Translations under genes and position numbers: made by a program
Shown: positions 14,051-62,431 of the stretch, piece by piece
Position numbering within the stretch: position 1 is the stretch's first letter
How the letters are laid out: each line of letters begins with the position of its first letter
Notes under the pieces: generated by a model
What the model was told of the DNA's origin: nothing
Seen by the model: the letters and a program-made list of their open reading frames with translations, nothing else
The model's database searches: none
Assembly (NCBI GenBank): GCA_035772405.1
Contig: JAYKKM010000439.1
Span: 3,613,501 to 3,677,500, forward strand
Source: Chrysogorgia sp. JL179-B06
Taxonomy: Eukaryota > Cnidaria > Anthozoa > Scleralcyonacea > Chrysogorgiidae
DNA length: 64,000 nucleotides
Reading direction: 5' to 3'

Positions 14051-14133
14051 ATTTCTTAATCATGTCAGGGATTCAAAATGAATTGGTAGGGATTCATGCA
14101 GGTAATGATCCGCGGTTGAATCCACTTATAATA

Positions 14134-15815: not shown

Positions 15816-16602
15816 TGCTTTTCTGCAATTTGATTGGTTTCTGAGCGGTCTTTACAAACCGGTAAAGACTGGTCATTACAGAACCGCTGAAAATATTTAA
15901 AAAAAGCGAAAAAATGCAGAAATGTGAGAAATGTAAAAGAGCCATATAATGAAAACCTTATTAATCTCGTTTGATCGGTCTATACGGCAAAATATCCTTC
16001 CCTTGCTGTTTTCGCACAGACTTCGCTCTGTATTGAATAAATAATTTTTCCGTAAAGACCTCCCGCTAGGTCAATAAGTGACTGTTTAATACTTTTACAC
16101 TTTACGTTTCACTTTCGCTCGAAATATCAGACCTCCTACAAACTATTTTGGCAGCCAACCGTTTAAAGTATTAGATTTTTTACACGGCCTACGCAGCACA
16201 GCACTTTTATATCAATGTTTAATGAAGTTGTATATTATTATTCATATTTTGTTTTTCTATCCTCTGTTTTTTAATATACACTTTTATCATATGGCTTGGC
16301 TCACGAGGGGTCTTAACGCAGCTTTTTTGCAATCTGATTTGTTCCTGAGCAGTCTTTACAAACCGGTAAAGACCGGTCATTACAAAACAACTCAAAAGTT
16401 TTAAAAATTTCGAAAAAATTAAGGAAATGTGAGAAATTTAAAAGATCCATATGATAAAAACCTTTAGTATTAACCTCGTTTGATAGGCAACATTATCCTG
16501 TCCTTGGTCTTTCAGTACAGACCGCGCGAGCGAGCGACGAATGAAAGACCAAGGTCAGAACAATTTTGCCGTAAAGATCTCCTGTTCGGTCAATAAGTGT
16601 TT
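15816..16602 (+). repeat. Repeat flank and hairpins after the large array
   Basis: Holds two copies of the 230-bp dispersed repeat. It also has a strong hairpin at about 16500-16557, where CCTTGGTCTTTCA pairs with TGAAAGACCAAGG around a CGCGAGCGAGCGACG loop. No gene seen. Confidence 0.7.
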
Positions 16603-20177: not shown

Positions 20178-20944
20178 CAATATCATATTTTGCTACATAT
20201 AAACTGAAAACAAGATATATACCACGTGGGTTAAAAAACATGTTTTCCTCACAACAGAAGATAAAAATGACAAATCAAACTCGATTGCGTTGCAAATATA
20301 ACCCACGGTATTTCATCCTTACGGTTGCAACGCCCCGCAACCGTCAGATTTTCAGCGTCAAATTTATAATAAATTGATAATCGATAACAGCGAGACTGGT
20401 AGATTTTCGAATCTTACCTAATAAACGCCTAACACCAAAAAAATATTCTCTCACATTCAATGCAAAGTTTCGTTTTCCCGCTTTCTTTCCTTTCAAGTAA
20501 GTATATGACATGATATGACTAACGTTTGGATTACTTGAGTAGCACGCAATCTTCCGTTGGGAATAATTGGCGCGACATCTACGGGGAAGCTCTGTCATTG
20601 GCTTGGAACGTGCGGGTTGCAAGCCAATGGAATTGCTTCTTGATGGTTGCAAACCAGTTATGTTACGCTATTCTGCCACGAAATAGGCTAGAATTCATCA
20701 GTGTTTGCTCGATAAATCATATCGTATAGTCTTACTTTCAACATGGCGAATGATCTGTTAAGAAGTGTAGTCGATTGCTTGGACAATAAATTTTAAAAGC
20801 CTAAATATATAGTTACAAAGTTGTCATAAATTATGAATAATTAACAAATCAAGAGAGGAAACTAAAAATACATATTACAGGATGAGACAACACTAGTATA
20901 CAATGACAAAGAAGGAATTATAAGCTTACAAAAGAAAAAGTGAT

Positions 20945-23330: not shown

Positions 23331-23910
23331 ACGGTCAGAGACGGATTTTAGATGTATTTAGGTATAAGTCATTCCGTTCACTAACACAATGGTAGATTTA
23401 TATTGATAGAATGGTAGACTTTATTGTTAACCCCACCGTTATGTACATCTTTCCACTCACCGCTAATACAAGCCCGGTCGGACGGGGTTATGGATGACCA
23501 TCTGGGAATAACCTCATGTTGATTCGTGAGCTTGGAACTTATTAGTCGATCTCCCCCGTGCTTTGAGGGTTTTCCTCCGGGGTCTCTGGTTTTCCTCCCT
23601 CAGTAAAATCAACACTTAGATCTTAGTTGTGCTCCGTGGTCAGTCATGGTTCTGTGCCAGCCTGCGGCGCCTTGACATACATTCGACTCAGCCATGTTCG
23701 AGCCAAACATTTGTAAAGTCATACGTCTCTTGTGTATTTTAATAAGTTAGCGCTTTAGAATATTTCATAGTTTTAGTGCTATATAAATGTAGATATTATT
23801 ATTATTAAAAGAGCTTAACATTAAAACTTATATCAATATATATATATATATATAAAAGCGTTTAAACATTAAAGTAAGGCGATGAGTTAATCTTCTCTCA
23901 AATAGAGTGA
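23331..23910. repeat. Dispersed repeat with CCTCCGGGGTCTCTGGTTTTCC, plus duplicated flank
   Basis: 23470-23660 contains GGGTTTTCCTCCGGGGTCTC and CTGGTTTTCCTCC, a repeat style I know from invertebrate introns and untranslated regions. From about 23660 the sequence is shared with unit B (26755 on). It includes a short TA run (23839-23853). No coding sequence recognised. Confidence 0.5.
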
Positions 23911-24587
23911 GTGTCAACCGTCGTGCATTGCGCGTTTGTGTTTGTTCCGTACGTGATAACGAAGTGTTTTGAAGTGCTTCGTTGCCAACTTGACGTAGTA
24001 AATACTCCGAAAAAAAAAGTGATCAGACCAAGATAACGTTTCATTAATCAACTGCATATGAGTCGTTTGAAGCCATGCCTGCATATGTAAATTATTAACA
24101 AACACTACAAAGTTCTTGCGTCGATCAATTGATCAAAACACTCTCTTCTTGGATACGAGACAGATAATGGTAAACCAGTGCCGGGATCAGTTGCGACAAA
24201 TCAGCGGCAACTTCAAATCGTTGATACTTTCGATTTTGGATAGTAAAGTAATTTTCAGTTTAATTAATCAAATATTCTGTTAGTTATCCAGTTACAAATG
24301 TTCCATTTAAAATATGTTCATGCAAAATCACTTTACTGTAGGAATAACATTTAGGAATCCATCATTGTAGTCAAATATCGCAAACAAAATCGCCTCCTCA
24401 AGCAGTCAATCAAATTGCTGCAAAGTCTACCGTTTCTTCCACATTGCACAATGAATTAAAATAATGTTTTTTTATTTTGGAAGCTATGCCTACACCAAAT
24501 CAATAATTACTGTGATTGTGAAGCGACCACAATCATTAATATTAAACCCATTGTCCAAACATGAAATATGCTTCCCTTGGCCTGCTG
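23911..24587. other. Duplicated host or element DNA without recognised gene
   Basis: Matches parts of 26998-28402 in unit B. Unit B carries about 600 bases (27120-27700) and about 190 bases (27715-27900) that are absent here. Both copies have short ORFs only. Confidence 0.55.
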
Positions 24588-24830
24588 TAGCCTCCTCCGC
24601 AGAAAACTCTGTGTCTTCGTAGCTGCAACGTGTTCAGTTTTGCAACGTGTTCAGCCTATGATGTTTTGGCCGAGACAAAAAAATAAATAAGAGCATGGGC
24701 CCAAGCTCTTATTTATTTATTTGGCTCGGCCAACACATTATAGACTGAAAACGTTGCAAAACTGAAAACGTTGCAAAACCGTGAAAACGTTACAGTTAGG
24801 AAGACACAGAGTTGCCTGCGGAGGAGGCTG
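24588..24830. mobile_element. Foldback MITE with 9-bp target duplication, copy in unit A
   Basis: TAGCCTCCTCCGCAG at the left faces CTGCGGAGGAGGCTG at the right, with inner palindromes AAATAAGAGCATGGGC / AGCTCTTATTTATTT and repeats of GAAAACGTTGCAAAACTG. The flanks GGCCTGCTG (24579-24587) and GGCCAGCTG (24831-24839) differ at one base. The partner copy in unit B has a perfect 9-bp duplication. Confidence 0.87.
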
Positions 24831-25924
24831 GGCCAGCTGTTTGTATAGAAAAAATATTTCGTTCATCAAATAGAAATTCATTTATATTATTTTACTTATG
24901 TTACACAGGGCTCGACTGAAGAACATTTCGATGATATCCCTGTTTAAATATCATTATTATTTTTTATTATTATTAAGCACAGCGAATATGTTGGTATCAT
25001 GTACTAATTTACAAAATTTAAAGGGCGACTTAATACATGTATCTCGTTATTATATATTTGTCATCATGGTTAGTTATCATGGTTATATATGATTCAGCAA
25101 GCTACTTAATCTCTAAGGATATCTAATCACAACTACAACAATCTCCGCCAATATCATATTTTGCAACATATAAACTGAAAACAAGATATATACCAAGTGG
25201 GTTAAAAAACATGTTTTCCTCACAACAGAAGATAAAAATGGTAAATCAAATTCGATTGCGTTGCAAATATAAGCCACGGTATTTCATCCTTACGGTTGCA
25301 ACGCCCCGCAACCGTCAGATTTTCAGCGTCAAATTTATAATAAATTGATAATCGATAACAGCGAGACTGGTAGATTTTCGAATCTTACCTAATAAACGCG
25401 TAACACCAAAAAAATATTCTCTCACATTCAATGCAAAGTTTCGTTTTCCCGCCTTCTTCTTTCCTTTCAAGTAAGTATAATATCAGGCTCGTCCCTCGTG
25501 AATGACATGATATGACTAACGTTTAGATTACTTGAGTAGCACGCAATCTTCCGTTGGGAATAATTGGCGCCACATCTAGGGAAGCTCTGTCATTGGCTTG
25601 CAACGTGCGGGTTGCAAGCCAATGGGATTGCTTCTTGATGGTTGCAAACCAGTTATGTTTCGCTATTCTGGCGCAGAGTGTTTCACAAAAGATAGCGATT
25701 CAATCATTACTTGTACAGCGGCGATATCCAAAACATAGCTGTTGATAAAGGAAGATAACTTAAGGTTATACTCTACAATACGTCGGGCTGACATTGACTT
25801 TTTTTTGTTATTCATGCATGGGGATTGGAGATAACATGATGCTATATGATTGTTTGCAAGTAGGAGGTCAGGTAAATTTGTAACGAAATAGGCTAGAATT
25901 CATCAGTGTTTGCTCGATAAATCA

Positions 25925-26645
25925 TATCGTATAGTCTTACTTTCAACATGGCGAATGATCTGTTAAGAAGTGTAGTCGATTGCTTGGACAATAAATTTTA
26001 AAAGCCTAAATATATAGTTACAAAGTTGTCATAAATTATGAATAATTAACAAATCAATAGAGGAAACTAAAAATACATATTACAGGATGAGACAACACTA
26101 GTATACAATGACAAAGAAGGAATTATAAGCTTACAAAAGAAAAAGTGGTGCGGTGCCAATATTTGAGTTTAAAGGTGGTTTGAGATCGCGAATGAGAAGA
26201 GTTTCGCGCAAAAGAAGTTCTGTTTCAAAAGTACAACTAGAAATAATCTTAAAATCACTAAAAGAGACAGGGTGACCTGCAGTGTCACTGTTATGAGAGA
26301 TGATACTTGTGAGAGGAGGGTTACTATACTTCTTCCCAGTAAGAGGTGAGATTCCCTGCGTGTGATTAAACACACGTGTATGTAGATGTCGGATTGTTTC
26401 TCCGATATAAGAAGCTCCGCAGCTTCCGCACGTAAAATTATATACAACATGTGACCTAAGACGTAAGGGAATTTTATCTTTAAAAGAAAAGAAGTGAAAA
26501 AGTCTAACTGAAGGACGAGCGATAAATCTAATGTCAATTTGAGGACAGGCAGAGGTTTAGGTGATTTGGAGAACACTTTGTTGAGAAAAGCAGTAACACA
26601 GATGTCGAGAAATTTCTCTGGATTACCATTATTAATAAGGATGCA
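25925..26645 (-). pseudogene. Penelope-like element remnant in unit B (endonuclease end only)
   Basis: About 720 bases match 20745-21545 of unit A, including the TCGSCGASY zinc/GIY-YIG region and the C-terminal LIRDLKPP. The reverse transcriptase is absent; the break lies at about 26645, inside the segment reading NNGNPEKFLDICV. Several small deletions relative to unit A are present. Confidence 0.85.
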
Positions 26646-28402
26646 TTTGGAGAAAGTGTGTAATTTTGCGCTTTGTGCATTGTGGGACATGTACCTCAAT
26701 AATTGAGGTGACTGTCCCATGATGCCTTGTGGTCAACCTCGGAAAACTAACTATCGGCAGCTTGCGGCGCCTTGACATTTTGTAAAGTCATACGCGTCTC
26801 TTGTGTCTGTTAATAAGTTAGTGCTTTAGAATATTTCATGGTTTTAGTGCTATATAAATAGATATTATTATTATTAAAAGAGCTTAACATTAAAGCTTAT
26901 ATCAATATATATATATAAAAGCGTTTAAACATTAAAGTAAGGCGATGAGTTAATCTTTGCTCAAATAGGATTTTCCAGTTCAATTATTTTAAAGAGTGGG
27001 TGTCAACCGTCGTGCATTGCGTGTTTGTGTTTGTTTCCGTACGATAACGTGTTTTGCCGTACGATAAAGTGTTTTGAAGTGCTTCGTTGCCAACTTGACG
27101 TAGTAAATACTCCGAAAATTGTCCGAGTCTTATACCTATAGAGGCTTTCTTATTTATCCACAATCCAAATACGTCGACTCAGAACCTAATTTTCTTTTAC
27201 CTCGTCACTTGGTCTTCCACGTTTCGCGTCAGTCAAGGCTGACATAATTCGAAACGAAAGTCAAGAAAACGTCGAATTTTGTAAAAAATACAGAAATAAT
27301 TACTTTCTAAGGTATGTCTTCTTTCAATTAAAAGACAAAATGAATAATTTATATCAAGAATTGACAAGATATTTACGGATACAGTTCATGCTTCGAAAAA
27401 ATGGCAGACGGAGCGTGCAATGCGTGATCACGGTTGTCACTCCCTCTTTAAGGCTTCTGAAGATAAAGAGAAACTTGATTGTCCCAAGACAAATTTCGCA
27501 GCTTTATTGTGGACAAGTTGGTATTCATAATAAGTGGAACAATATTCCCATTATGCAATATAAGTAAAAGTAGTGTATTAATTAGGAGTTTTCTGGTGTT
27601 AAAAGATAATACATGATTAATCCTTTGGAGCGGCATACTCATGCAGAGTCTTTTCAACTTTGCATATCATGTAATCAACGTGATCAGACCAAGATAACGT
27701 TTCATTAATCAAGATTCCATGATATTTGAAAGTATTTGTCAACACAAGGGTTAATATGGGAAGATAAGTTGCATTTATGTTATTCTATTTCATTCATCCT
27801 AACCATGAGGCATAAAATAATTTGTTTTGAAGAATTTCTTAGTTTGTTAATTGGTGTCGTCTTAGAAGGACTATAGCAGAATTAAATAAGTCTACTGTAC
27901 ATGACTGCATATGAGTCGTTTGAAGCCATGCCTGCATATGTAAATTATTCACAAACACTACAAAGTTCTTGCGTCGATCAAAACACAGTCATATCTTCTC
28001 TTCTTGGACACGAGACAGATAATGGTAAACCAGCGCCGGGATCAGTTGGGACAAATCAGCGGCAACTTCAGATCGTTATACTGTACTTTAGATTTTGGAT
28101 AGTAAAGTAATTTTCAGTTTAATTAATCAAATACTCTGTTAGTTTTCCAGTTACAAATGTTCCATTTAAAATATATTCATGCAAAATCACTTTTAGGAAT
28201 CACATTTATAGGAATCCATCATTGTAGTCAAATATCGCAAACAAAATCGCCTCCTCAGGCAGACCATTCCTCCCACATGCACAAATGTTTTTTTATTTTC
28301 GAAGCAATAGCTACACAAAATCAATAATTATTGTGAAGCGACCACAATCATTAATATTAAACACATTGTCCAAACATGAAATATGCTTCCCTTGGCCAGC
28401 TG
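26646..28402. other. Rest of unit B, no recognised gene
   Basis: Partly duplicated in unit A (see there) and partly unique to B (27120-27900). The unique stretch has only short ORFs (for example 27340-27567 +) that match nothing I know. Confidence 0.5.
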
Positions 28403-28646
28403 TAGCCTCCTCCGCAGGAAACGCTGTGTCTTCCTTAGCTGCAACGTGTTCAGTTTTGCAACGTTTTCAGTCTATGATGTTTTGCCAGAGACAAAAAATA
28501 AATAAGAGCATGGGCCGATGCTCTTATTTATTTATTTGGCTCGGCCAACACATTATAGACTGAAAACGTTGCAAAACTGAAAAAATATTGCAAAACTGCA
28601 AACGTTGCAGCTATAACGAAGACACAGTTGCCTGCGGAGGAGGCTA
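28403..28646. mobile_element. Foldback MITE with perfect 9-bp target duplication, copy in unit B
   Basis: Starts TAGCCTCCTCCGCAGG and ends CTGCGGAGGAGGCTA. The 9-mer GGCCAGCTG flanks both sides exactly (28394-28402 and 28647-28655). The duplication size suggests a Mutator-like or related superfamily. The same insertion at the same site in unit A shows it preceded the duplication. Confidence 0.9.
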
Positions 28647-28871
28647 GGCCAGCTGTTTATATAGAAAAAAAATTTCGTTTATCAAATAGAAATTCATTTA
28701 TATTATTTTACTTATGTTACACAGGGCTCCACTGAAGAACATTTCGATGATATCCCTGTTTAAATATCATTATTATTTTTTATTATTTTTAAGCACAGCG
28801 AATATTTGGGTATAATGTAATATATCAGACAGATTTAGCAAACAGGACGCGGACGTCAAGAGGACGTGAGA

Positions 28872-29880
28872 ATGTGATTTGACCGACGAGGACTGGGTCG
28901 AGGACGCCGTCGTGTTGTGAAGAAAAACAGATTTAGCAAACTGAGGACATCTCGACAACGTTATTCCATACATTTCTTTTTCAACTAAAGGAAACTTTAT
29001 ACAAACAGACAATAAGTGAAATGAGAAAAAAGCAAATTATACACAAAGGTAGATGTGTTTAATATGCCGTTTAACTTAATGTTGGATTGCTGCAAATGTA
29101 AAGTGATGTTGTGAGTTTGTCTAGCCTTCATATTCTACAACACAGAATCTGTCGGGCTTTCTTTCACTGTCGAAGTGTTGTTCGGTGATTTTTTGTTGCT
29201 ACAAGAACAAAATGAATGGTTTCTTCGTGAATATCCTGCCCGACGAGAGGTAAAATAAACATTTTACACCTTTTCCATGTGCTTTTGGTCACTATATATC
29301 TATAAAAGTGTTAATATATATATATACAAATTATACGGAAATTCTCGTTCGCTTTTAGCGTTGCTTTGTATATTTTCGGCCTATTTTTGCAAAATCTTGT
29401 GAAAATTAACATGGAAGATTGCTATATTTTATGATTTGCTTTTTGTGTGTACAAGACCTCAAAAATTAAAAATTCCCGTGTTTGGATAATCAGAGCTCTT
29501 GTGTACATATTTTATAAACACGTTTTCGAATGAAAATTTCCTATTTTCTTGATCTCAACACTCAACAGTTGACCTTATTTTGATCTCGTTTCGATAATAC
29601 TGGTATTCAAGCCATTAATTTTATTACACTGTATATTTTTATGTATGTGTCTTGGAGTTTTTAATCGACTTTTCATGCTTACAAGACTGAAACTTTGCCT
29701 GTTTAATATTTCTTTCACTGCACAAGATTTTCTACACATTTGAGGCAGCAAGGCCTATTTTTTTCTGCAGCCCACTGATCTGGAAAAAAACCGCCTGCGA
29801 AGGAGGTAGCAAAATCTTCCCCGTGAATTTTCCCCGTTTGACACCAATTTAGAACCCACTTCTTTGGGAATTCAGTGGAA
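28872..29880 (+). other. Left internal region of the 13.1-kb insertion; Gypsy 5' leader, LTR not found
   Basis: A second AACAGATTTAGCAAAC (about 28926) repeats the end motif. Nothing here resembles the putative 3' LTR start at 41287, so the 5' LTR is missing, diverged or truncated. The last 150 bases probably form the Gypsy leader. No other gene seen. Confidence 0.4.
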
Positions 29881-30384
29881 GAAATGGCTTCAAAGACTCG
29901 AAAATTTTGTTCGTGGCGCTAGATATCAAGGACAAAGTTCGACAGAAAGCCTTGCTCCTGCATTATGGTGGTCCAAATCTATGCGGTATTTATTACACGC
30001 TTGCTGCGGAAGACGACCAAGAATACAAGCACGTAAAAGAAAAGCTTGATCAGCATTTCGAACCGAAGATAAACGTGACTTTTGAAACTTACAACTTTCG
30101 TCAATTATCTCAGGCTCAAGAGGAGCCAATCGATAAATTTGTTACTCGTCTTCGTGAAGCAGCGGGACGGTGTGTTTTTCACGATGCGGATAGAGAAATA
30201 AAGGATCAGATAGTTCAGAAATGCTTTTCTGAACATCTGCGGAGAAAAGCACTACGCGACGATCCGTCACTGTCAAATTTGTTGAAGGCAGCCAGAGCCA
30301 TGGAAATGGCAGATGTACAGGCCAAGGCGATGGAAGATTCGTCAGTCATTGCTGAAAGTGAGACAACAGCAACGAGGCGCTAAA
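29880..30384 (+). pseudogene. Ty3/Gypsy gag-like region
   Basis: A 158-codon frame (ATG at 29907) reads DIKDKVRQKALLLHYGGPNL, then a Y-x-x-V-K-E-K-L-D-Q-H-F block, F-R-Q-L-x-Q and EEPIDKFVTRLREAA. This is the capsid-like pattern of Gypsy gag proteins in invertebrates. A few codons of the true N-terminus lie upstream in another frame. The frame stops at 30383, just before the zinc-knuckle region. Confidence 0.85.
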
Positions 30385-30700
30385 GACGAGAAGGAACCTC
30401 CCCAAGACGGTTCGTCCCCACAAAGCAGAAGAGAGAGGGATCTGACCAGTCGAGAAAAGAAGGAGTGCTTTCACTGTGGAGGTCAATGGCCGTATCCAAA
30501 AGGAAAAAAATCTTGCCCGGCTTGGGGAGTCGAATGTCGAAATTGTGATAAAAAGAATCACTATGCCCGGATGTGAAAATCAGCCAAAAAGTTAAGAAAG
30601 ATCGGTAATACAAGTAATAGTGAAAGTGAAGAGGAATATCAGGTGTCAGCTGTGAAGAAGAAACCCAAAGTAAGGTGACAATCAAGGTCAACACAGTTCC
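30385..30700 (+). pseudogene. Gypsy nucleocapsid zinc-knuckle region, frameshifted
   Basis: The frame at 30420-30576 reads KKECFHCGGQWPYPKGKKSC and then VECRNCDKKNHYARM before TGA. The C-x2-C-x-K-x-N-H-x-A-R motif is typical, but the final cysteine codon is lost to a one-base deletion. This breaks the link to protease. Confidence 0.85.
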
Positions 30701-31430
30701 AATTCAATTCCAGATTGACTCGCGAGCTGATCAGTTAACATTATTGATGAAAATAGCTTTGAAGATTTGCAAGGACAGGTAACGCTGGAAAAATCTCGGG
30801 CCAAGTTGTTTCCGTATGGTTCCACCAAACCTCTTCCTATTTTGGTCAAGTTTACAGCCACAATTGCTACAAAGAAGCGTTATGACGTAGCAGATTTCTA
30901 TGTAATAAAAGCATCACGATCATCAGGGTGTTTGTTGGGTTCGGCATCAGCTGTCAATCTCGGCATCCTGCATATAGTGAATCGCGTGAAAGCCAAGCCT
31001 ACATCGTCAAAAGCAACCTCCGCATCGGCAAAGCCTGCAGTCTCATTAAACAAGAATATACAGGAGCTGATCAACAATAACCAGGAACTTTTTAATGGCA
31101 TTTGGAAATTAAAGGGGGTGAAGGTGAAACTCCATATTGATGAAGATGTAATTAAGCCCGTACCGTTTCACTTAAGGGATAAAGTTGAAGCCGAGTTGAA
31201 ACGTCTGGAAGAATCAGGTATTATTGAGACGGTGAATTCTGCAACAGACTGGGTTTCGCCGATAGTAATTGCACCAAAGAAAGATTCAGATGAAATCAGA
31301 ATGTTCGTTGATATGGTAGAACCCAATCAGGCTATAAAGAGAACCAGACATCTTATTCCAACGGTGGAGGAGTTACGCCACGACCTCAATGGAGCCAAGC
31401 TATTTTTCAAACTGGACCTACAGTAGCCAA
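30700..31430 (+). pseudogene. Gypsy protease and first part of reverse transcriptase
   Basis: The aspartic protease motif, normally D-S-G-A-D, reads DSRAD here (about 30717), so the catalytic loop glycine is lost. The 219-codon frame from 30767 runs through the protease C-terminus into the reverse transcriptase fingers: VPFHLRDKVEAELKRLEESG, DWVSPIVIAPKKD, HLIPTVEELRHDLNGAKLF. It ends at FKLDLQ followed by a stop, in the middle of palm motif A. Confidence 0.9.
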
Positions 31431-31965
31431 TGGTTTTCACCAGCTCGAGTTGGATGAAGAAAGTCGGAGTATTACTACTTTTTCCACTCATGTGGGGTTG
31501 AGACGCTTCTGTCGACTTAACTTTGGCACCAACTCAGCTCCGGAGATTTTTCATGAAGAGTTAAGAAAGCGATTAGAAGGGATCCCTGGTGTTAGGAACA
31601 TTCACGACGATATTCTGATTGCTGGGAAAGATGAGCAAGACCATTTCCGAGCACTCAGCGCCACCTTCGAGCGTCTTCGTGAGTCATGAGGCTTGACTTT
31701 AAAGCGAAGCAAATGCGAGTTCGGAAAAACGTCAATTAGATTTATCGGACTCATTTTCTCAGATCAAGGAATTAGTCCAGATCCTGAAAAGGTGGAAGCC
31801 CTCCAACATATTTCTCCCCCAAGCAACCAAGCACAGTTAAGGTCATTCCTGGGCATGGCTAATTATTCAGCTCAATTCATCCACAACATACGCGACCATA
31901 GCAGCGCCTTTACGAGAACTGACAAGGAAGAATGTTCATTGGACATGGACACCAGAACATGAGAT
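31431..31965 (+). pseudogene. Gypsy reverse transcriptase, palm and thumb
   Basis: FHQLELDEESR, then RRFCRLNFGTNSAPEIF, then NIHDDILIAGKD with the catalytic D-D pair. After a stop at 31687, KCEFGKTSIRFIGLIFSDQG and LRSFLGMANYSAQFI follow. A further frameshift near 31940 leads into RNase H. Catalytic residues remain but the ORF is in pieces. Confidence 0.92.
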
Positions 31966-32716
31966 GTCGTTCAAGGCAATAAAGGAGAATCTACGCACAA
32001 CTGCCCTCCTGAATTACTATGACCCGAATTTGCTAACTGAAGTCATCTGTGATGGATCACCTGTGGGAGTTGGGGCAATGCTTGTCCAGTATGATCCCAA
32101 GAAGCAAGAACCTCGAGTTATAGCATACAACAGTAGGTCTTTCACCGAAGTGGAGAAGAGATATGGACAGATTGAGAGAGAATCCTTGGCCATACAATAT
32201 GGATGTCTCAAAAACGAGATTTATTTACTCGGGAGAGACTTCAATGTAATCACGGACCACAAACCCCTGGTGAGCCTTTACAACAATCCACGTCGACCAG
32301 ACCCTTTTCGGGTCGAACGTATGCGATTGAAGTTGCAGGGATTTTCATTTAACGTAGTATACCGTTCGGGCAAGCACAATCCAGCAGATTGTACCTCCAG
32401 ACAGCCTCTACCTTTATCCCGGTGTTCACGAGAGGAGCTGAAAGAATACACAGAATTAGAAGCCCACGTCCATTGGATCGTTACAAATGACGTTCCACCA
32501 TCTCTGAAACTAAAGGAACTTCGGTCAGCGACGTATAGTGATCCAATTCTTCATGATCTTTACAGTGTTGTCAAGCGTGGACACAAGATGGATGATCCCA
32601 AATTTAAGCACTTCCGAAACATAGCTGAGGAACTTTCCATTGCAAAAGGGGTCATATTACGCGTGGTAGCAGAATTGTTATACCAACGTCTTTACAAAAC
32701 AAAGTCATCAAGATAG
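31965..32716 (+). pseudogene. Gypsy RNase H and integrase zinc region
   Basis: A 250-codon frame: LTEVICDGSPVGVGAMLVQ (first catalytic Asp), AYNSRSFTEVEKRY, E-R-E-S-L-A, FNVITDHKPLVSLYN, then RSGKHNPADCTSRQPL, the standard Ty3/Gypsy RNase H. It continues toward the integrase N-terminus and stops at 32716 just before the H-x3-H motif. Confidence 0.93.
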
Positions 32717-33321
32717 CTCACTAGGGCCACCAAGGACTGGTCAAAACTAAACAGTTGCTTAGATCTAGGGTATGGTTTCCGAAGATCGATGCCAAAGTTT
32801 CAGCTATGGTTAGTCCTTGTGTTGCATGCCAAGCCACCGTGAATACACCATCAATACAGCCAATACAGTCGACACAGCTTCCAAGTGGCCCATGGGATCG
32901 AGAGCTTAGCAGTTGATTATTATGGGCCTCTGCCATCAGGGGATTATGTCTTAGTCGTTATAGATGAATATTCAAGGTTCCCGGCGATACATCAGCTAAA
33001 GCAACAATTCCCAAACTCGACCGGATTTTTTCATCCTATGGTATCCCACGGGAACTCAAGAGTGACAATGGCTCTCCGTTTAACTCTGAAACGTTTAGCA
33101 AATATTGTGAATTCATGGGTATCAAGCATAAAACCATCACTCCTCTACATCCAAGAGCTAACGGGTTAGTCGAACATTTTAATCGAATGATTAACAAGGT
33201 GGCGCGGACATCCTCTGTTGAGCGGAAATGCTGGAAACAAATTCCTTCGGAACTATCGAGCGACACCCCACCTAACCACTGGCAAATATCCCGCTGATTT
33301 ATTGTTTCAGACCCGACCATA
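32717..33321 (+). pseudogene. Gypsy integrase, zinc finger and catalytic core (split by CACTA-like insertion)
   Basis: HQGLVKTKQLLRSRVWFP and CVACQAT give the HHCC-like finger. The catalytic core shows VDYYGPLPSGDYVLVVIDEY (first D), KSDNGSPFNSETF (second D) and NGLVEHFNRMINK (E). At least three frame changes occur. The frame is cut at LLFQTRPY by the element starting at 33322 and resumes at 40467. Confidence 0.92.
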
Positions 33322-33336
33322 CACTGTAAATGAAAA

Positions 33337-34150
33337 AGGGCCAAAACGACTCCAAAAACGGGGCCAAAACGGTGACCGCAAAATAGATCTTTTTTTGGGG
33401 CCAAAATGGCACCTATAACAACGCGGCCCCTAAGGGGCGTTTTGGCCCTCTCGGGGTAGGGGCTGTTTTAGCTCTAAGTAGGGACCGTTTTGGCAGAAGC
33501 AGGGGCTGAATCGACTTTTGACCAGGATCGTTTCAGAAAACTGTGGGGCCGTTTCGGAAAATCAAGGAGTCGTTTTGGCACGCACGCGGAGCCATAATGG
33601 CCCCTAAAAAGCGTCGATTAGCTTTCTACATGGGGCCGTTTTGGCTCCATTGAGATGAGCTATTTCAGCCACCAAGAGGAGCTGTTATGGAAGAAATAGG
33701 GGCTGTTTCGGCTTTAACGAGGAGCCGTTTCAGATAGCTACGGAGCCGTTTTGAAAAATAAGGAGTCAATTTGACTCCTTTTTTGGAGCCATACTGGCCC
33801 CTAAAACACGTCGTTAGAGCTGTTTTGCCTCTTGTGAAGAAGGGCTATTTCAGCTTTCAAAAGGGGCTATTATGGGAAAAGTAGGGGCTATTTCAGCTTT
33901 TTACCATGCGGCGGAGCCGTTTTGAAAAATAAGGAGTCAATTTGACTCCTTTTTTTAGCCATACTGGCCCCTAAAAAAAAAGTCGATTTAGCTCGGCATT
34001 TAGAGCTGTTTTGGCTCTTGTGAAGAAGGGCTTTTTAGCTTTTTACCATGGCCGTTTCAGAAAGCGGCGGAGCTCTTTTGGAAAGTAAGGAGTCAATTTG
34101 ACTCATTTTTTGAGCCATAATGTCCCCCAAAACGCATCGATTCAGCTCGG
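33337..34150 (+). repeat. Left subterminal repeat array of the CACTA-like element
   Basis: About 25-30 degenerate copies of motifs such as GGGGCCGTTTTGGC, GGAGCCGTTTTGAAAA, GGGGCTGTTTCGGCT and GGGCCATAATGGCCCC, spaced roughly 20-45 bases. The right array shows the same motif mostly inverted. In CACTA elements such motifs bind transposase. Confidence 0.85.
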
Positions 34151-34204
34151 TGTTTAGAAAAGTGACAATATGTTGTGACAATACCATAAAAAATTTAATG
34201 ATTG

Positions 34205-34374
<170 letters not shown>

Positions 34375-34641
34375 AATATAAATATATAAAATAATATAAA
34401 ATACACAAATTAAAGTTTGGCTTTTTGAACAAATATATTTGTATCAATAGATAACATACACATGTATTATAAATCTAACAATTTAACGCAAATCCAACTC
34501 CAAAACAAAAGGTAAGCGTGCAAAATGTAAGCGTGCAAACAATTGGGCCATAATAAATATATTAGGGCCCAATTGTTCAAAGAGCAATAAGCACCGATGT
34601 TGAAATTTAATCGGACGAGCAATTTGATTTCCTAGTCTTAA

Positions 34642-36155
34642 AGTGCTACTGAGATGAAAAATTCGTCTATCTAATTTTGATTTTATCTAAAAGTATTTTG
34701 AAAGAGAAACAGAATGGGCCGGAATGGCTTTCGCAGTTTCTCAATACCTCATATCGTTCCAGAGATATTCAGGTTATTAGATGCCATATGACGTCATTTT
34801 CTCACATAAACTAAAGAAAATTCACAAAATGAGGCATATCTCTACAAATAACATGCAGAAGGTTTTGAAACTTTGCACATGTGTGCCAATGATGAAAGTG
34901 CACACCACCGTGCATGGTATGTTGTTGATATGGAGATCGCTGGGAAGCAGGAGGTTTTAACTAAAAAACTAAAATCTTAGTTTCTGTATCTTTCTTAAAG
35001 TGTTTATGAAACGAAAATTGAGATGACTTTTTATTGATTTAACAATTTATTTGAGAGAACTTCTCAAATGATACAGAATGGCGTTTGTAGTTCTTTAATA
35101 TCTTATCTCGTTCTCGAGTTATTCAAGATTGTGTAATATGACATATGACGTCACTAGATGTACCCACCATTATGATGAATCAGAAAATGAAGCATATCTA
35201 CAAAAATATTGCGCAAAATTGTTTGAAACTTTATACAAGTATACAGGTCACTAAATTAAATATCCACACGTCAACTTTGCCCTACAAAGAGTTTGACACG
35301 AAGTTGCTCTGTTTTGTTGGCAATACTATTGAAAATATACATCACTGATCAACAGTTAAATATTGGTTTAGAAAAGGCAGAATATAAACAAGTTTATGAG
35401 AGGAATAAAAGGAGTCTGGGAACTAATCTGTTACCATGGCAACAATAAAGTTTACGTGGGTTATTCAATTTAGTGACCTGTATACTTGTGCAAAGTTTCA
35501 AGGAATTTTGTTCAATAGTTTTGAAGATATGCTTCATTTTCTGATTCGTCATAATATGGGGTACAACTAGTGACGTCATAGGTCATGTTACACAATCTTG
35601 AATAACTCGAGAACGAGATAAGGTATGGAAGAACTACAAACGCCATTCTCTTTCAAATAAATCAATAAAAAGTCATCTCAATCTTCGTTTCATAAACACT
35701 TCAAAGAATAAGATGGTTTAGACCTCCGCAATACAATATCTACATGTGTACGAATCTTCAACTCTATGCACTACAGTAAACGCTGTTTGATAGAGGAGAA
35801 ATAAACAAATTTTGTTTTACAAGTGGAAGAGATCTGACGCCAAGCGATCTCCATGGCAACAACATACTGTATACGGTGGTGTACCCTTTCATCATTGGCA
35901 TACATGTGCAAAATTTCAACTTTCAAAACATTCCGCTTGTTATTTGCAGAGAAATTCCTCATTTTGTAAATTTTATTTAGTCTGTATGAGAAACTGAAGT
36001 CATATGGCATCTAATTTTCATGTTTCAAAAACCTGAATATCTCTGGAACGAGATGAGGTATTCAAAAACCAAGAAAGCCCATTCTGTTTCATTTTCAAAT
36101 TATTTTTTAGATAAAATCAAATTTGGATAGATGAATTTTTCATCTCAGTGGCACT
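34642..36155. mobile_element. 1.5-kb foldback element with TTAA duplication
   Basis: AGTGCTACTGAGATGAAAAA at the left faces the inverted AGTGCCACTGAGATGAAAAA at the right. TTAA lies on both sides (34638-34641 and 36156-36159). The arms, each more than 600 bases, share blocks such as GAATACCTCATCTCGTTCCAGA, TATGACGTCA and ATTTAGTGACCTGTATACTTG, and nearly meet at about 35270/35450. TTAA target choice points to piggyBac, Kolobok or Sola3-like elements. No transposase. Confidence 0.88.
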
Positions 36156-36159
36156 TTAA

Positions 36160-37915
36160 TATTTTCAAACATGTTTGCAGTCATCTTTATAACTCTGTTC
36201 ACACACTTATCACCCTTTGAACAGCTAGCCCTATGCAGATATATTTATGACAAAGCATTGAAAAATGAAGTTACTCTTATCGGTAATTGGCCTCCTTGTT
36301 TAGTATTACCAAATACAATTGTTTCTAAGAAACATAAAATACCAACATGGCTATATTCAATGTTAAAGGTGTAAAAACTTGCCAACAAGGCAATAATTGC
36401 CTCGAAACAGCTGTTGGCGCTTGCAATTGTGCAGAACCCCTTTCCCTCAATTGAAATAAAAACTCTGTCATATTTGAGGATGCTGCCCAAAGTCACAATA
36501 TGGGGTTGTGCCAAATTTTCTATGCATTTTTGTACTTTTCCAGCATCCTAAAAAAACAAAAACTGAAAATTAGATTTTCTTACTCCAACCACTAATTTAG
36601 GGGCCTGTTCCTATGAGCTTCACCAGGGTGCGATAAATATCAAGTCAATTTCATATGGGACGTATTCGCTTCACTTCCATGGAAAAGCGCTCAGAAGTAC
36701 TGGAGCGAGATCGTCTTAGCAAATCAGAATGCCCCATGAAGAACATTCATCCTTGTTAACCAGGCTACACTGGCTCACCGAATTTTAGTTTATGTGGGAA
36801 ATCTTCATCCCACTTCACTACCAATAAGAGATATTTAATATAAGTCTTTATGTACTGTACAGCTGATAGTTATATACATGTAATTCAAAATGTTCCAAAA
36901 AGGATTATTACCTTTATACAGTGATCCCATACTCTTAGACCCTGTTCATATGAGCCTGGCTGGCTATAACTTATCTGGGTGTGAGAACTAATTTTGTGAT
37001 TATATGTGAAATGAACCAGCCCGGTTCTCACCTTCACAATAATTAACACTTTGTCTTGAGGCGCTGCATTTTTGCTGTTATTATCAGCAAATAAACAAGA
37101 CTGACAGTGAATATCAACATACGGTATGGTAGTGGTACAGTACTTAGAACTACTGTATGATGAAAAATATGGGAAAGAAATTATATACCGGTACAATATA
37201 AAGGCGATGTAAATACATATTACAGCTTGAGTAGCAAAAACTAACAACTTTAATATATACTTGTTGTTTTTATGTACAGGTACATGTATTATTCACTGTA
37301 TCACTGCTTGCTACTGTACTGTATTTATTGACGAGTAGCATAGCCACCAGCCAATGAGATAAAAGTATTAGCAACATATACATATTAGTTTCTACTAATA
37401 TAACAGGTACTGTACTGTAGGTGCAAATCATCTTACAAACGACAAAAAGGATGCAGCTTGACGGGGCCAAGTTGAAGGCAACTAAGGCACCATACTGTAG
37501 ATTAGCACCATATAATATAACCCATGTTTGCATGACCTCGGAGTACAGCTAAGAGGTTAGTGTGAGGGTTGATATTGGAGAGATGGAAAAGTTGGTAGTA
37601 ATAACCTGGAGAAACACTGGAGATAATCAACTACAACTCTACCCACATGAGTCTCGAGCTCAGAAGAGCATCCGTTTGTCATTAACTTTCCAAGCTTGTA
37701 TATCCCACAATATTTACAACAATTGTTATTATAGACACAGTATACTTTAAGAACAAATATACTATAAGAACAAATAACAGTTGCAATGTCATGCATAATT
37801 CTGAAACATTGACACAACCCTATTGTGAACATGTTAAACAAATTCTCAAATTATATTATAAAAGAGAAACATGCATGGATACTGTAAATAGAAAACTCAC
37901 CAGTATGATCGCCAT
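36160..37915. other. Internal CACTA-like region without recognised transposase
   Basis: Holds short ORFs only. Two stretches with CCTGTTCATATGAGCC-like sequence (36604-36620, 36943-36960) suggest another small repeat. A 67-codon plus-strand ORF at 36171-36374 (reads FEQLALCRYIYDKAL) has no match I know. Confidence 0.45.
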
Positions 37916-38020
37916 GTTCATTATCTTCATCCTCGTCTAGTACATGTTCCATTTTGTCAATAATTGGCATTTTCTTTTCTTTTCCACATTTAAAATTTTT
38001 TTGAATCAACATTTTAAAAT
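37910..38020 (-). CDS. Possible minus-strand exon, acidic peptide, in the CACTA-like element
   Basis: The minus strand reads KEKKMPIIDKMEHVLDEDED and then NEHGDHTG before a GTGAGT donor (about 37904). The start could be ATG at about 38012. Codon use and a good donor suggest a real or captured exon, but no acceptor partner or homologue is recognised. Confidence 0.3.
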
Positions 38021-38040
38021 AACTCCCGTGCAGCGATTAC

Positions 38041-39120
38041 CAACAGAGTCAGGCATACCAGCTGTTGTTAACGTGTCTTCGTCTGGCAAAGTAAGTATTG
38101 AAATTACGATATGTTTATAACATCTATATTATAATATTTCAGTCGAGTGTACATAAACATTTATATCACAGTAAGTCACTGGCACAGTCGTCATTGTTGT
38201 TATTAGTTGTACGTAGTGGTGGCACTAAAAATATGAACATAATTGAAACAATTCTTATCATTTTCATATTTAAAATGAACTATAGAGAAGTCTTTAGGCT
38301 ACTAATTTTCTTTTTCCTTTCTGTTTTATAAAGTAATAGTTTCTCCTTCTTCTTTTGTTGCTGTCTTATTTTTCTATCTTTACAACGTTTCTTTTTTCCA
38401 GATTGGTGTGTATTCTATTTTGGGAAAAATATCAGTAATCATATTTCTAATCTGTACAGTTCTGTTCCTACACAACATCTTCGCACCTACACATCGTGTT
38501 TAGGACAGAGTTCCAGAACATGAAAATGTTCAGCGCTACAGCCCTGTAGGTTCCCAAAGAGTGTGCAGCCCATGTATATCATAGTACAGACCGTAGAAAT
38601 GTGATTAAATAATATTTCCCATATAGAACAGGACAGAGGTAAAAATTGCAAGAAAGGTTTGACAGGAAAATTAAATATTTGGACTAAAGGTGTATATATA
38701 AATACACTACTCCTGGTCTCCTCATACACTTTGGCTCAGCATGGATAGTAAAAGTTCTTTTACTATCCATGGGCTCAGATAGGAAGTTAATTTTTATTCT
38801 TTTGCAGTATTTAAAAATGGAACTTGTTGAACCAGTTTGATTAAATGACCATAATTGTTATTCAAAGAATAATTTTTGCCATGGATGAAATGACAAATTA
38901 AAAATTGGAAGAATACTGCCATAAAGTTCTTATTATGTTAATGGCGGCAATGTCCAGTGAGGACTGCTAGTTCCAGTGACTTACTGTGATATAAATGTTT
39001 ATGTACACTCAACTGAAATATTATAATATAGACGTTATAAACATATCGTAATTTCAATGCTTACTTTGTCTTTGCCAGACGAAGACGCGTTAACAACAGC
39101 TGGTATGCCTGACTTTGTTG
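38041..39120. repeat. Inverted repeat with exon-like arms (38041-38182 and 38977-39120)
   Basis: The two 142-bp arms are about 93% identical by eye and face each other across about 800 bases. Each arm contains coding-like sequence (GIPAVVN, S-S-S-G-K) followed by GTAAGT/GTAAGC and, about 65 bases later, TATTTCAG. The minus-strand arm continues outward as an open frame with LLGDSPITPVRRLPTKSGIP (about 39180-39110). A 15-bp perfect palindrome lies at 38740-38771 in the spacer. Function unknown. Confidence 0.6.
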
Positions 39121-39739
39121 GTAGTCGCCGCACAGGAGTTATTGGGCTATCACCTAGTAATGCGGTCGATGGGCTGCCGCTCCTTCGACATCTTGAACTG
39201 TCGAACAGTCAAACTGCTTCGTTTTCACTGAGTCAGTAATAGCATCAGGAACCTAAAAATACGTCGACACAAAGAAGAATCCCAGAGAGATCTGCCACAC
39301 AATATTCTTTAGAATTAGACTGCCCCACTACGAGGCGTTTCTCGAACGTATATATTGACATCTGGTAGTAAAACGAGTGAATGTTTAGCCTTCTAAACTG
39401 TATTCGATTCAAATATCCCTCTTGCAAAGAAATCCAATCCAAACCGTCACTTCCAGAATTGGCGCCAACAGCTAGTGCGCATGCTTCGATATAATGCCAG
39501 GCGCGATTCATCGCGGGCGCGCACTACGTCCCGCAGTTTTCTAGCCAAGTACATGCATTCGTTGTGCATGCATTCGTTGCGCGGTATAAAACAGTAACAC
39601 TATTTATATACATTCATTTTTCACTTATACCATAATGTTGTATAAGACCACCATTTGTCAAATACCTTAAACTGTAATGCGTTTTAGATTTTTAAAATCG
39701 TAATTATATATTATGATAATTATACAACTTCACAGCTGG

Positions 39740-40445
39740 AACATATCGTTTCTGACACGCACAAGAGTCGATTTAGTGAAATAAGATGTGGGATTTGAAA
39801 CAAGAGTCGATTTGATGTCAATTTGAGACAAGTGTCGTTTCGACACGTACGTACAAGATAGAGTCGATTTGTCGCAACAGTCGTTTTGACACAAGGATCG
39901 ATTTGAGGCAAGAGTCGATTTGACGCAAGAGTCGTTTTGACACAAGAGCCGATTTGACGCAAGAGTCGATTTGTCGCAAGAGTCGTTTTGACACAAGGGC
40001 CGATTTGACGGCGTGACGCAAGAGTCGATTTGTCGCAAGAGTCGTTTTGACACAAGGGCCGATTTGACGCAAGAGTCGATTTGTCGCAAGAGTCGTTTTG
40101 ACACAAGGGTCGATTCGACACATACAAGAGTCGATTTACCGAATAGGGCCAAAATGAAGCAAATTAGAGCTGAAATGGCCCATATTGATGGCCCCAAAAC
40201 TTGGGCCAAAATAGACCCAGACGAAGAGTCGTTTTGGACAGGGGGGCTGAATTAGAAAACGGGCGGGCTAATTCAGCAAATGACAGGGCTGAAATGGCAA
40301 GGGATGGGGCTGATTCGGCATTTCCGCATAGCTAAAATGGCCCTGTCAACGCCGATTGAGCTCTCAAATGCCAAAACAGCTCGCGCATAGGGCCAAAACG
40401 GCTTTGACCCCAAAGGAGCTGAAACGAAATTCAGGGTCGTTTCAG
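39740..40445 (-). repeat. Right subterminal repeat array of the CACTA-like element
   Basis: 39755-40135 holds about 17 copies of CAAGAGTCGATTTG and CAAGAGTCGTTTTGACA with a roughly 45-bp higher-order unit. 40140-40445 holds GGGCCAAAATG, GGGCTGAAATGGC and related words, the inverted form of the left-end motif. ORFs across it are repeat artefacts. Confidence 0.85.
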
Positions 40446-40466
40446 CCCTTTTTCATTTACAGTGTA

Positions 40467-41087
40467 CAGAGTACGGTTGCCAGAGCTGTCGACATTTGAA
40501 ACTGATGATCAAGAAGTGCGCGAGAGAGATGCACAGCAGAAATTGAAGGCCAAACAGTATGCTGATAAAAAGATCTATGTTCGACAGTCAAGCATCGAAG
40601 TTGGCGACTTAGTCTTGGTCCGAAATGAAAGGAAAAGAAAACTGCAACCAATATATATGATCCCATACCGTATACCGTGACTGCGAAGAAGGGAACTATG
40701 GTTACTGCTTCTAGACATCACCCAAGACACGTTATAACTCGAAATACATCGTTCTTTAAGAAGTTGAAGACTGCGCAAGCGGACACCGGTGGGATTGGCC
40801 AGGAGGCGCAATCCGATAATGTGGACTCATCCATGAGGTACGGCAACTATCCGGGGAAGATCGTGGGAGAGAAAGAGCATGGTGAGGAACAAGAAAATGC
40901 CAATGATGAAGAAGGAACAGTTGAACAAATTCCCGAACACGAGGTTGGTGTGCGAGACCGAGACGTCCAGGAAGATTCACATGAAACAGAATCTAGAGTC
41001 AACGTTGGTCCACAAGTAGTTGGTCGACCTCAGCGTGAAAGAAGGGCCCCGGGATGGCATGAGCAGTACGAGATTGAAAGAACATAA
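40467..41087 (+). pseudogene. Gypsy integrase C-terminal part (continues from 33321)
   Basis: Resumes as RVRLPELSTFETDDQEVRER, then QYADKKIYVRQSSIEVGDLV, matching the integrase C-terminal domain (V-G-D-x-V-L-V). A frame change at about 40680 leads to a tail with TAKKGTMVTASRHHPRHVITR and later RPQRERRAPGWHEQYE, common in invertebrate Gypsy C-termini. Stop at 41085. Confidence 0.92.
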
Positions 41088-41286
41088 TATAACTGAAGAA
41101 CTTGGAACTCAATATTGCAGTTTTATATAGACCGTTGTATAGTATTACAGTAGGCAAGCAGACATGTCACGCGAGGCTGAATAAGGTTATTAGTTCATGT
41201 TTTGTTTTGTTTTGTTTAATTGTTGTTCAGATATAGTTGTATATAGCGTAATGACCATATTTAGTTTACTGAAAGTTTTGGAGGGA

Positions 41287-41480
41287 TGTAGTGTCCAGGC
41301 CTCCTACGCAAGGGGCGGAGGAGGACTGAGATGGCGTCCATGTTGGATATTATGTAAACAACCACAAGGGATTAATAAAACATTTTAAGAGTGTATTCGG
41401 CTAAGAGCAAACGCTTCCTTTGATGTTCGAGTGTTGTTTTATATCGGGTTAAAAACAACGAGTTTTTAAACAACAAGTTC
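41287..41480 (+). repeat. Putative Gypsy 3' LTR (start only)
   Basis: GGAGGGA (polypurine tract) is followed by TGTAGTGTCCAGGCCTCC, a typical Gypsy LTR start, then AATAAAA at about 41373. The end is uncertain because no second LTR copy was found for comparison. Confidence 0.5.
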
Positions 41481-41901
41481 ATACTGTCATATTTTTGCTT
41501 CGTTTCGTTGACAAAAACTATAGCAAGAACTACATTTACCGGGGTTTTATATTCATAATACAAAAACGAAATTATAGAGGTGCTTATATTCAAATGGAAT
41601 ATCACTAAACCCTTATATTTACCACATTTACGAGCTATTTTTATCTAAAGTATGCACAAAACCTTTATTTACGCTTTTTACGTACACGAAATATTATAAA
41701 TAAAACAAAAGTGTACATAACTTTTATCTCTAATTGTTTCTTTGCTTGTACTCGCCTTGTTACGAACAAAAAAAAATCTAAAACAGTTCACGTCTTAGAC
41801 AGGACGCCAAATCTTGAAAATCACGTCCTAAAAATCGCGAAGACGACGTCGTCTTTAGCGCCGGAAGTGAAATTGACAAAAATCCACGCCATCTTTCGCC
41901 A
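41481..41901. other. Right internal region of the 13.1-kb insertion
   Basis: Non-coding, CG-containing near the end (AGACGACGTCGTCTTTAGCG). Several CACGTC / GACGTC words approach the terminal repeat. No gene seen. Confidence 0.4.
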
Positions 41902-42070
41902 TCTCACGTCCTCTTGACGTCCGCGTCCTGTTTGCTAAATCTGTCTATTATAATTTAAAGGACGACTTAATACCTCGTTACTATATATTTATCAGAATGG
42001 TTAATTATCATGGTTAGTTATCATGGTTATATATGATTCAGCTAGCTACTTAATCTCTAAGGATATCTAG

Positions 42071-42135
42071 GTCATGAAACCCCTTTGAAAAGGTCATGAA
42101 ACCCCTTTGAAAGGTCATGAAACCCCTTTGCGAGG
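42071..42135 (+). repeat. Three tandem copies of GGTCATGAAACCCCTTTGA
   Basis: A 21-22-bp unit repeated three times directly after the end of duplication unit B. Confidence 0.9.
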
Positions 42136-42448: not shown

Positions 42449-42853
42449 ATGGCGGATATGGAGTACGTGCGTGAGTGGTTTTTAAAGCATGAACTTGGAG
42501 AATATGCTGACTAGTTTATTTCAAATGGCTTTGATTCTATGGAGTTAATTCTCGAGTCGGTAGATAAGCAATTCTTGGAAGAACATTTCAGAACAAATCG
42601 GTTTATCTGGAAAACGACACAAGTTGCTCTTGGCCCTTCGACGACAAAAAGAGGGGATAACGCCACACCACATTCATAAAAACATGTACGATTGGTTTCA
42701 TGAAATCGACATTTCACATTATTTCATTGCCTTTAAAGACAAGGGCTATGATGACCTTGATGTTATCATCGAAGTTGTTTCAGAGGAAACACTTAAAGAA
42801 GAATCTCACTTCTGGGTCAGAGAGGAGCATCTGCTCCAGCAGAAACTGGTTTA
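42449..42853 (+). pseudogene. Two SAM domains, frame broken
   Basis: From ATG 42449 the frame reads MADMEYVREWFLKHELGEYA, then D and a TAG at 42512. After it the same frame continues with FISNGFDSMELILESVDKQF. After a shift near 42605, SGKRHKLLLALRRQKEG completes a sterile alpha motif. A second SAM-like unit follows: NMYDWFHEIDISHYFIAFKD and YDDLDVIIEVVSEETLKE, ending at 42853. SAM domains mediate protein-protein binding. Integrase sequence of a BEL/Pao element starts about 120 bases later, so this may be part of that element's gag-pol or a neighbouring gene fragment. Confidence 0.75.
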
Positions 42854-42879
42854 AAGCAAGATAAAAACGTCCCAAACTT

Positions 42880-43945
42880 TCTTAAGTGGACTGATGAAGC
42901 TCTCGGCTCCGAACCATGGAAAAATAAATCCCTTGGTTATATTCTATATCCAAAAGGACCTTTCCAGGAAAATGCGACCGAATTGAAAGTCCAAAAACAG
43001 TTTATGGCGAATCTACCTGCCCAAAGAATGGAACCTTACACGGCGCATTTCCTCTACACATCATGCGACTACTTTGGGCCAATAAAGGTGAAAATTGGTC
43101 GAAATAAAACTGCCAAACACTACGGCGTGATATTCACGTGTTTGAATACCCGATCTGTCCATTGTGAGTTGGCTACCGACGCCATGAGTGCCATGGATTT
43201 TCTCCAGGTCCTGAGAAGATTCTTTCATGCATACCGCGGATACCCAAAATTCAGTGCTCTCGGACAACGGCCTGCAGATGGTTAGAGCAGAGCATGAATT
43301 GCATCTCATGATCGAGAACTGGGACAAGGACAAACTAAAGGCATTCTGCGCTGAGCGTGAAATGATGCAGTTCACCGCACCATTGGCTCCCCATCACAAC
43401 GGTTGCGCAGAATCTATGGTGAATTCCATCAAAACTGCACTCAAGAAGGCAATCGGCTACTCCAATTTAACCCCGTTCGAGCTATACACTAGCCTTCTCG
43501 AAACTGCTAATCTGGGACAAATCAACAGCCCAATGGCAGAATGCTTCAAGATCCCGATGATGGTTTCCATCTGTGCCCTAACGACATTCTCGTGGGAAGA
43601 GCAAAGAATGAAATTCCACAGGGTCCGTTTCGTCACACGAATAATCCACGACACAGATTTGAGTTCTGTCAAAAGATAGTCGAGTCGTTCTGGAAGAAGT
43701 GCAGTCTCGTGACGTTTTCCCACAACTGGTGCCACGAAAGAAATGGACCACAGAAAAGAGAAACGTAAGAGTCGATGATTTCGTTGAAGTAGCTGATCCC
43801 AACGCAGTCCGGGGAAAGTGGAACATAGGAAGAGTAACAAGTGTTTCCAGGAGAAGACGGTAGGGTAAGAAATGTCCAAGTGAAGACTGCCACAGGAATT
43901 TACCTGGGCCCAATCACGAAAATTTGTGATTTACCCAGCTGAAGG
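42880..43945 (+). pseudogene. BEL/Pao retrotransposon integrase and C-terminal domain
   Basis: QKQFMANLPAQRMEPYTAHF, then SCDYFGPIKVKIGRNKTAKH and FTCLNTRSVHCELATDAMSA give the BEL/Pao integrase core start. LSDNG appears in a shifted frame at 43252; PHHNGCAESMVNSIKTALKK holds the glutamate. Later frames show NDILVGRAKNEIPQGPF, FCQKIVESFWKKC, R-V-D-D-F-V-E-V-A-D, RGKWNIGRVTSV and GPITKICDLPAEG, the DUF5641-like end. At least four frameshifts. Upstream gag, protease and RT are absent. Confidence 0.9.
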
Positions 43946-56356: not shown

Positions 56357-56396
56357 GTTAAAACGTTTCGGCATATTCAGCCTTCATCAGTTAAAA
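56357..56396 (-). ncRNA. Hammerhead ribozyme motif 3 (left arm of palindrome)
   Basis: Minus-strand CTGATGA, stem II AGGC-TGAATAT-GCC, then GAAA and a minimal ACGT stem III with GTT as cleavage triplet. UUAA on both sides can form stem I. The core is intact but the stems are short. Confidence 0.7.
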
Positions 56397-59680: not shown

Positions 59681-60599
<919 letters not shown>

Positions 60600-61950: not shown

Positions 61951-61975
61951 ATGGTTTTTATAGATAGATGTTTTA

Positions 61976-62386: not shown

Positions 62387-62431
62387 TTAAGAGAAAATAC
62401 ACCTCCAAACCAATATATATATATGATATGG

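Follow-up and report, generated by a model that had tools for sequence, protein, structure and literature searches.

A nested stack of transposable elements in Chrysogorgia sp. JL179-B06 holds more layers than it had insertions, and the depth of its inner layers is not their order of arrival. The stack lies in a 64,000-nucleotide stretch of the genome (C439:3613501-3677500, hereafter the window). Comparison with related copies elsewhere in the assembly indicates that it is composed of six layers, counting the host unit B, and that three insertions took place at this locus: an outer inverted-repeat transposon, a Gypsy retrotransposon, and a CACTA-like composite. The inner three elements arrived together, and on the same evidence both foldback insertions took place in an ancestor of the CACTA-like family. 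Taken as a whole, the history is very probably one of a local duplication, three insertions, and a CACTA-like element that arrived already loaded with two foldbacks.

The original prediction, made from the letters of this region, described a five-layer stack whose entire order could be read from its borders. The nest is real, most of its borders are where they had been placed, and its layers all belong to many-copy repeat families. The count of five missed a second TTAA foldback at 34999-35700, and the complete order could not be upheld, as the inner foldbacks arrived inside the CACTA-like element. Apart from the order of these inner layers, the stack is an ordinary, well-bordered transposon nest.

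Approach and integrity of the locus

Two questions were put to each layer: does the interrupted element have an empty site in its other copies, and is the content of the interrupting element the same in its other copies? Every step was judged from unit A and from family copies elsewhere in one assembly (781 Mb, 522 contigs), not as a polymorphism at the stack locus. Counts from genome searches refer to the best 40 candidates scored (the best 34 in one search with a unit end and the best 150 in the search for Transposase_21). Layers 1 to 5 and the Gypsy LTR are given on the plus strand; the host units, target duplications, filler, and empty site carry no strand.

Every layer turned out to be a member of a repeat family with at least a dozen other places in the genome. 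Assemblies misjoin at many-copy repeats, and the stack could for this reason be suspected of being an assembly artefact. We regard this as scarcely credible. The stack sits within a contig of 11.8 Mb, the window is free of N, and both the CACTA-like element and the first foldback stand between matching flanks of the kind their families make (TA and TTAA, respectively), a match that a misjoin would not produce.

Host units and the outer transposon

Unit A (20178-25125) and unit B (25148-42070), which holds the stack, had been described as paired units of which A lacks the outer insertion, and their alignment bears this out. The K2P distance between them is 0.041 over 2493 bases, with 92-96% identity over the first 1.2 kb and about 88-91% near the insertion. 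Among the matches listed, partners of the unit ends above 90% were confined to A and B. A short piece of unit B right of the stack had an 81% match, and the remaining rows were short pieces at 70-89%. Since no other listed ends are this similar, the pair looks like a local tandem duplication rather than two arrivals of a mobile unit. A broken reverse transcriptase (RT) region lies on the minus strand of unit A, and 733 homologs of its pieces were found. PF26215 was present in nearly all of the 120 homologs listed and RVT_1 in many of them; together with a GIY-YIG match in unit B (E 0.0088, below the cut-off), this suggests that the element broken in both units is probably Penelope-like.

Layer 1 (28827-41946) is a non-autonomous inverted-repeat transposon with 1551 bp of its own sequence (28827-29818 and 41388-41946). 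Its predicted inverted-repeat ends were confirmed, with 45/45 bases identical between the 45-bp termini at 28827 and 41946. The empty site expected in unit A at about 24985-25000 also exists, but the A-B comparison and the 3-bp ANT duplications of family copies place it a few bases rightward, at the ATT of 25007-25009. The left end of the element matches at least 39 other genome places and its right part at least 42 other rows, some at shared places. Twenty of the 39 places were fetched, and both ends could be found by pattern in 12 of these copies, ten of which measure 1.57-1.85 kb; the other two measure 3.3 kb (L024) and 0.6 kb (L026). Identical flanking 3-mers of the form ANT border nine of the 12 two-ended copies, and 23 of their 24 flanks have this form. 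No likely transposase of an autonomous partner was seen among the open frames of six long or one-ended copies, judged by eye.

We also considered that the inverted repeats and the Gypsy sequence might together make up a single retroelement with the unusual feature of inverted ends. This was rejected, as Gypsy-free inverted-repeat copies are common, including the ten of about standard length mentioned above. The outer element of the window has ATC on its left and ATT on its right, such that the target duplication matches at two of three bases; this mismatch weighs against the reading of the stack given here.

A Gypsy element with a deleted left border

Layer 2 (29825-41387) is a broken Gypsy LTR retrotransposon whose own sequence occupies 29825-33321 and 40467-41387. 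Remnants of gag, RT, RNase H, and integrase follow one another in this order; RNase H and rve scored above the Pfam cut-off, gag and RVT_1 below it, and the coding region is split over many short frames. The right border of this layer is intact and the left is not. On the right, comparison with relatives delimits a 101-bp 3' LTR (41287-41387), followed by a 5-bp flank that has no partner on the left. The left border is a deletion, marked by a 6-base filler (29819-29824) that was recognized by comparison with layer 1 copies and Gypsy relatives. Missing there are the 5' LTR, about 55 bp of leader, and about 60 bp of layer 1.

Seven of the 20 layer 1 copies could be aligned across the Gypsy site, several others having lost the stretch by deletions of their own. 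All seven contain the approximately 60 bp that are absent from the window after 29818. Six of them run on, free of Gypsy sequence, into the counterpart of window position 41388, and the seventh (L013) has a 30-base gap of its own before resuming. From the Gypsy side, nine relatives were compared at the left end. In eight of them, a 5' LTR and a leader of about 55 bp precede the position that matches 29825; the ninth (L037), like the window copy, is missing this stretch. Target duplications of 5 bp were found in seven other Gypsy copies (those of L033 and L035 were read by eye, and L030 and L031, which share flanks, represent one insertion). A direct-repeat search of the stack for two Gypsy LTRs found none, because the 5' LTR has been lost; the window copy retains the 3' LTR only, with no target duplication. 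Given relatives with two LTRs and 5-bp duplications, it can be understood as a damaged member of the Gypsy family. In the simplest reading, its left border is not an insertion border but a later deletion repaired by end joining, a mechanism and a relative date that we infer.

The CACTA-like element

Layer 3 (33322-40464) is a CACTA-like transposon without a recognized transposase. Its borders were correctly predicted: it has CACTG ends, a 20-bp perfect terminal inverted repeat (20/20 terminal bases identical), and a 2-bp target duplication consisting of TA at 33320-33321 and again at 40465-40466. Eleven Gypsy loci were fetched, of which L033 and L038 fall outside the site; all nine copies that cover it run through the TA without an insert (L030 and L031 again being one insertion). 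The family shows the same behavior elsewhere. Of 18 further CACTA-like copies of which both ends were read, 17 have identical 2-bp flanks (12 TA, 4 TG, and 1 CA) and the 18th has lost three terminal bases; CACTG ends stand at 35 of the 36 termini. One of these copies (C34) lies inside a TA repeat and is uninformative, and two (C473 and C385a) share flanks and thus represent one insertion.

The element had been proposed to cut the Gypsy integrase in such a way that its removal rejoins the reading frame. The insert does lie in the Gypsy frame, but downstream of the Pfam integrase core match rather than inside it. On the open frame of copy L030, the left piece reaches residue 225 and the right piece picks up at residue 226, so that the two indeed meet; the window copy, however, shifts frame about 80 bases upstream. 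This shift, together with the many short frames, indicates that the integrase of the window Gypsy is broken apart from the CACTA-like insert too.

The one open reading frame of the element that was scanned gave no match. Transposase_21 has at least 150 matches elsewhere in the genome, none of which falls within the listed copies of the CACTA-like family when coordinates are compared by eye.

Two foldbacks carried as cargo

Layer 4 (34642-36155, foldback 1) is a TTAA foldback element, with TTAA on both sides exactly as predicted, and layer 5 (34999-35700, 702 bases, foldback 2) lies inside it, flanked by TTAA and TCAA. TTAA flanks, long inverted arms, and copies standing alone, as expected of such elements, were all found; their targets may be of the piggyBac or Kolobok type.

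Clean TTAA borders inside a CACTA-like element are what a series of successive insertions at this locus, ending with the foldback, would leave behind, and this was the order originally proposed. The copies elsewhere make it extremely improbable. The left end of the CACTA-like element and the foldback, used as separate queries, found matches at shared places, and these matches were paired by position and strand. Among the matches listed, the 30 other close CACTA-like copies (91-100% identity over the matched left end) all contain foldback 1. In 28 of the 30, the match crosses the left junction at the same TTAA, and in 25 the right flank follows within 14 kb. The 46 rows listed for a query made of this junction comprise the window, 39 rows that span the junction with 30 bases or more to either side, and six short extra pieces, which were left out. 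When the two flanks were joined into one query, no empty site was found; none of the 42 rows (best 40 of 87 candidates scored) joins the flanks, and the rows start or stop at the TTAA or end short of it. All four CACTA-like copies that were read over the stretch carry both foldbacks at identical sites. Arrival of the foldback as the last insertion would need tens of independent insertions at one TTAA. As the junction is common to other close copies, we conclude that foldback 1 was in the CACTA-like family before the window copy jumped, and that it is a passenger. With the best 40 candidates scored per genome search, a close copy free of the foldback could be missed.

A presence in all 30 other close copies would also be expected if the foldback had been inside the CACTA-like element from the start, perhaps with a function there, and were not an insertion. 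We consider this very unlikely, since related foldbacks occur free of CACTA-like flanks. Three copies of foldback 1 (about 82% identity) stand outside any CACTA-like element; TTAA borders the end that was read in L041 and both ends of L042, and CTAA the end that was found in L040. Moreover, the site of foldback 2 is empty (TTAA once) in these three copies and in the CACTA-like copy L083, which contains foldback 1. A weaker point is that neither foldback is among the matches listed for nine diverged CACTA-like copies, whose left ends have 83-84% identity. Also among the matches listed, foldback 2 occurs in 23 of the 30 close copies, and a CACTA-like neighbor is lacking at 12 of the 39 other places that it matched.

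Copy L083 differs from the window by 5.7-7% in foldback 1 and by about 2% in its CACTA-like flanks. Its foldback 1 may have undergone conversion, in which case its missing foldback 2 is perhaps not ancestral. Foldback 1 also occurs at 86% identity in C498 and C363, where the CACTA-like flanks match too.

Order of events

For the outer part of the proposed order, namely duplication, inverted-repeat element, Gypsy, and CACTA-like element, each step has an empty site in its support (in unit A, in six of seven layer 1 copies, and in nine of nine Gypsy copies). Distances to the nearest copy agree with this outer order, although they are not insertion dates: 0.041 between units A and B; 0.040 for the left part and 0.022 for the right part of the outer element, not counting copies of which less than half was covered; 0.019 for the left and 0.021 for the right part of Gypsy; and 0.009-0.014 for the foldbacks. 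The spread among carried copies of foldback 1 (the window and L083 differ by up to 7%, and C498 and C363 have 86% identity) exceeds the distance of about 2% between the Gypsy and its nearest copy. The first foldback capture may therefore be older than the Gypsy insertion, if rates are equal, an assumption that L083 calls into question.

The following course of events would account for the stack. Tandem duplication of 5 kb that contained a broken, probably Penelope-like element would have given units A and B. Unit B would then have received a short non-autonomous inverted-repeat transposon at an ATT, followed by a Gypsy element with LTRs of about 100 bp inside that transposon. A later deletion, sealed with a 6-base filler, would have taken the 5' end of the Gypsy and 60 bp of its host transposon, and the CACTA-like composite would have inserted into the Gypsy at a TA. 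At an earlier time, in the family ancestor, one TTAA foldback would have entered the CACTA-like element and a second TTAA foldback the first. The whole composite would then have been copied to tens of places by its CACTA-like ends, with a transposase presumably supplied in trans. Of this course, the borders, the empty sites, and the foldbacks at matching sites in other family copies are directly observed.

It is conceivable, though a long shot, that the doubly nested foldback helped its carrier family spread, and so turned from a captured passenger into a working part of a composite transposon. If so, its role might be, for example, that of a hairpin helping CACTA-like copying, or of hiding the element from silencing.

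Comparison with known systems

Short term searches of the literature found no paper plainly about a family met here, which is not proof of absence. Penelope-like elements are defined by an RT with a GIY-YIG endonuclease; nearly all of the RT homologs listed for unit A carry PF26215, and the GIY-YIG match of unit B lies below the cut-off. The Gypsy layer resembles Ty3 elements in its gag, RVT, RNase H, and rve in the usual order, its short LTRs, and the 5-bp duplications of its other copies, and differs in being broken, with the 5' LTR gone. CACTA (EnSpm) elements make short target duplications of 2-3 bp. The window element shares with them its CACTG ends, a short perfect terminal inverted repeat, repeated subterminal motifs (seen by eye), and a 2-bp duplication, but lacks a recognized transposase. 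The foldbacks are similar to TTAA foldback or MITE-like elements in their TTAA flanks, long imperfect inverted arms, and many copies; no coding sequence was recognized in them here, and we leave their superfamily unsettled.

Relative age is often taken from nesting depth, and this stack is a clean counter-example that would be invisible from a single window. Its inner borders look like those of fresh insertions, yet the deepest layers would be older associations, because they travelled as cargo. Before a nested stack is dated, its inner junctions should be looked for in other copies of the carrier, a check that tells local insertions apart from shared cargo.

In the parts of their descriptions that concern nesting, REANNOTATE (PMC2672092) and TinT (PMC3014933) deal, as we do, with elements inside elements, and derive order from which span lies within which. 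The tandem COPIA2/INVADER1 case presented for REANNOTATE (PMC2672092) draws on the same shared-site argument that we used for the foldbacks. As far as that part of its account goes, REANNOTATE takes the level of nesting as temporal order (PMC2672092); here, this equation would fail for the inner layers, which arrived together, and would misdate them.

Additional features within and around the nested insertion

Many other genomic copies of the outer element (L011-L028), the non-autonomous inverted-repeat transposon at 28827-41946, carry approximately 150-170 bp extra at the point corresponding to position 29062, which the window copy lacks. Within the stack, the CACTA-like element (33322-40464) includes a long (TA)n tract at 34208-34370; another long tract of this type lies at 59984-60138. 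A further CACTA-like copy, L083 (C149:3295480-3296640), also harbors foldback 1, the TTAA foldback element located at 34642-36155 in the window. While the CACTA-like flanks of the two copies differ by about 2%, their foldback 1 sequences differ by 5.7-7%, a mismatch that may reflect conversion or an independent history.

A 21-22-bp unit (AGGTCATGAAACCCCTTTGAAA) occurs three times in tandem (42069-42133) directly at the outer edge of unit B, the right half of the local tandem duplication, and may be a remnant of the breakpoint of that duplication. Elsewhere, we observed a large tandem repeat array (14131-15817) with strong strand skew and long open frames on both strands, and two near-palindromes, 56300-56831 and 61972-62390, which are 94% and 89% similar to their own reverse complements, respectively.

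Open frames at 42797-43679 returned zero Pfam matches at a threshold of 0.001; by eye, they resemble a BEL/Pao-type integrase. An open frame on the minus strand (63268-63933) contains repeats that appear hemopexin-like on visual inspection.
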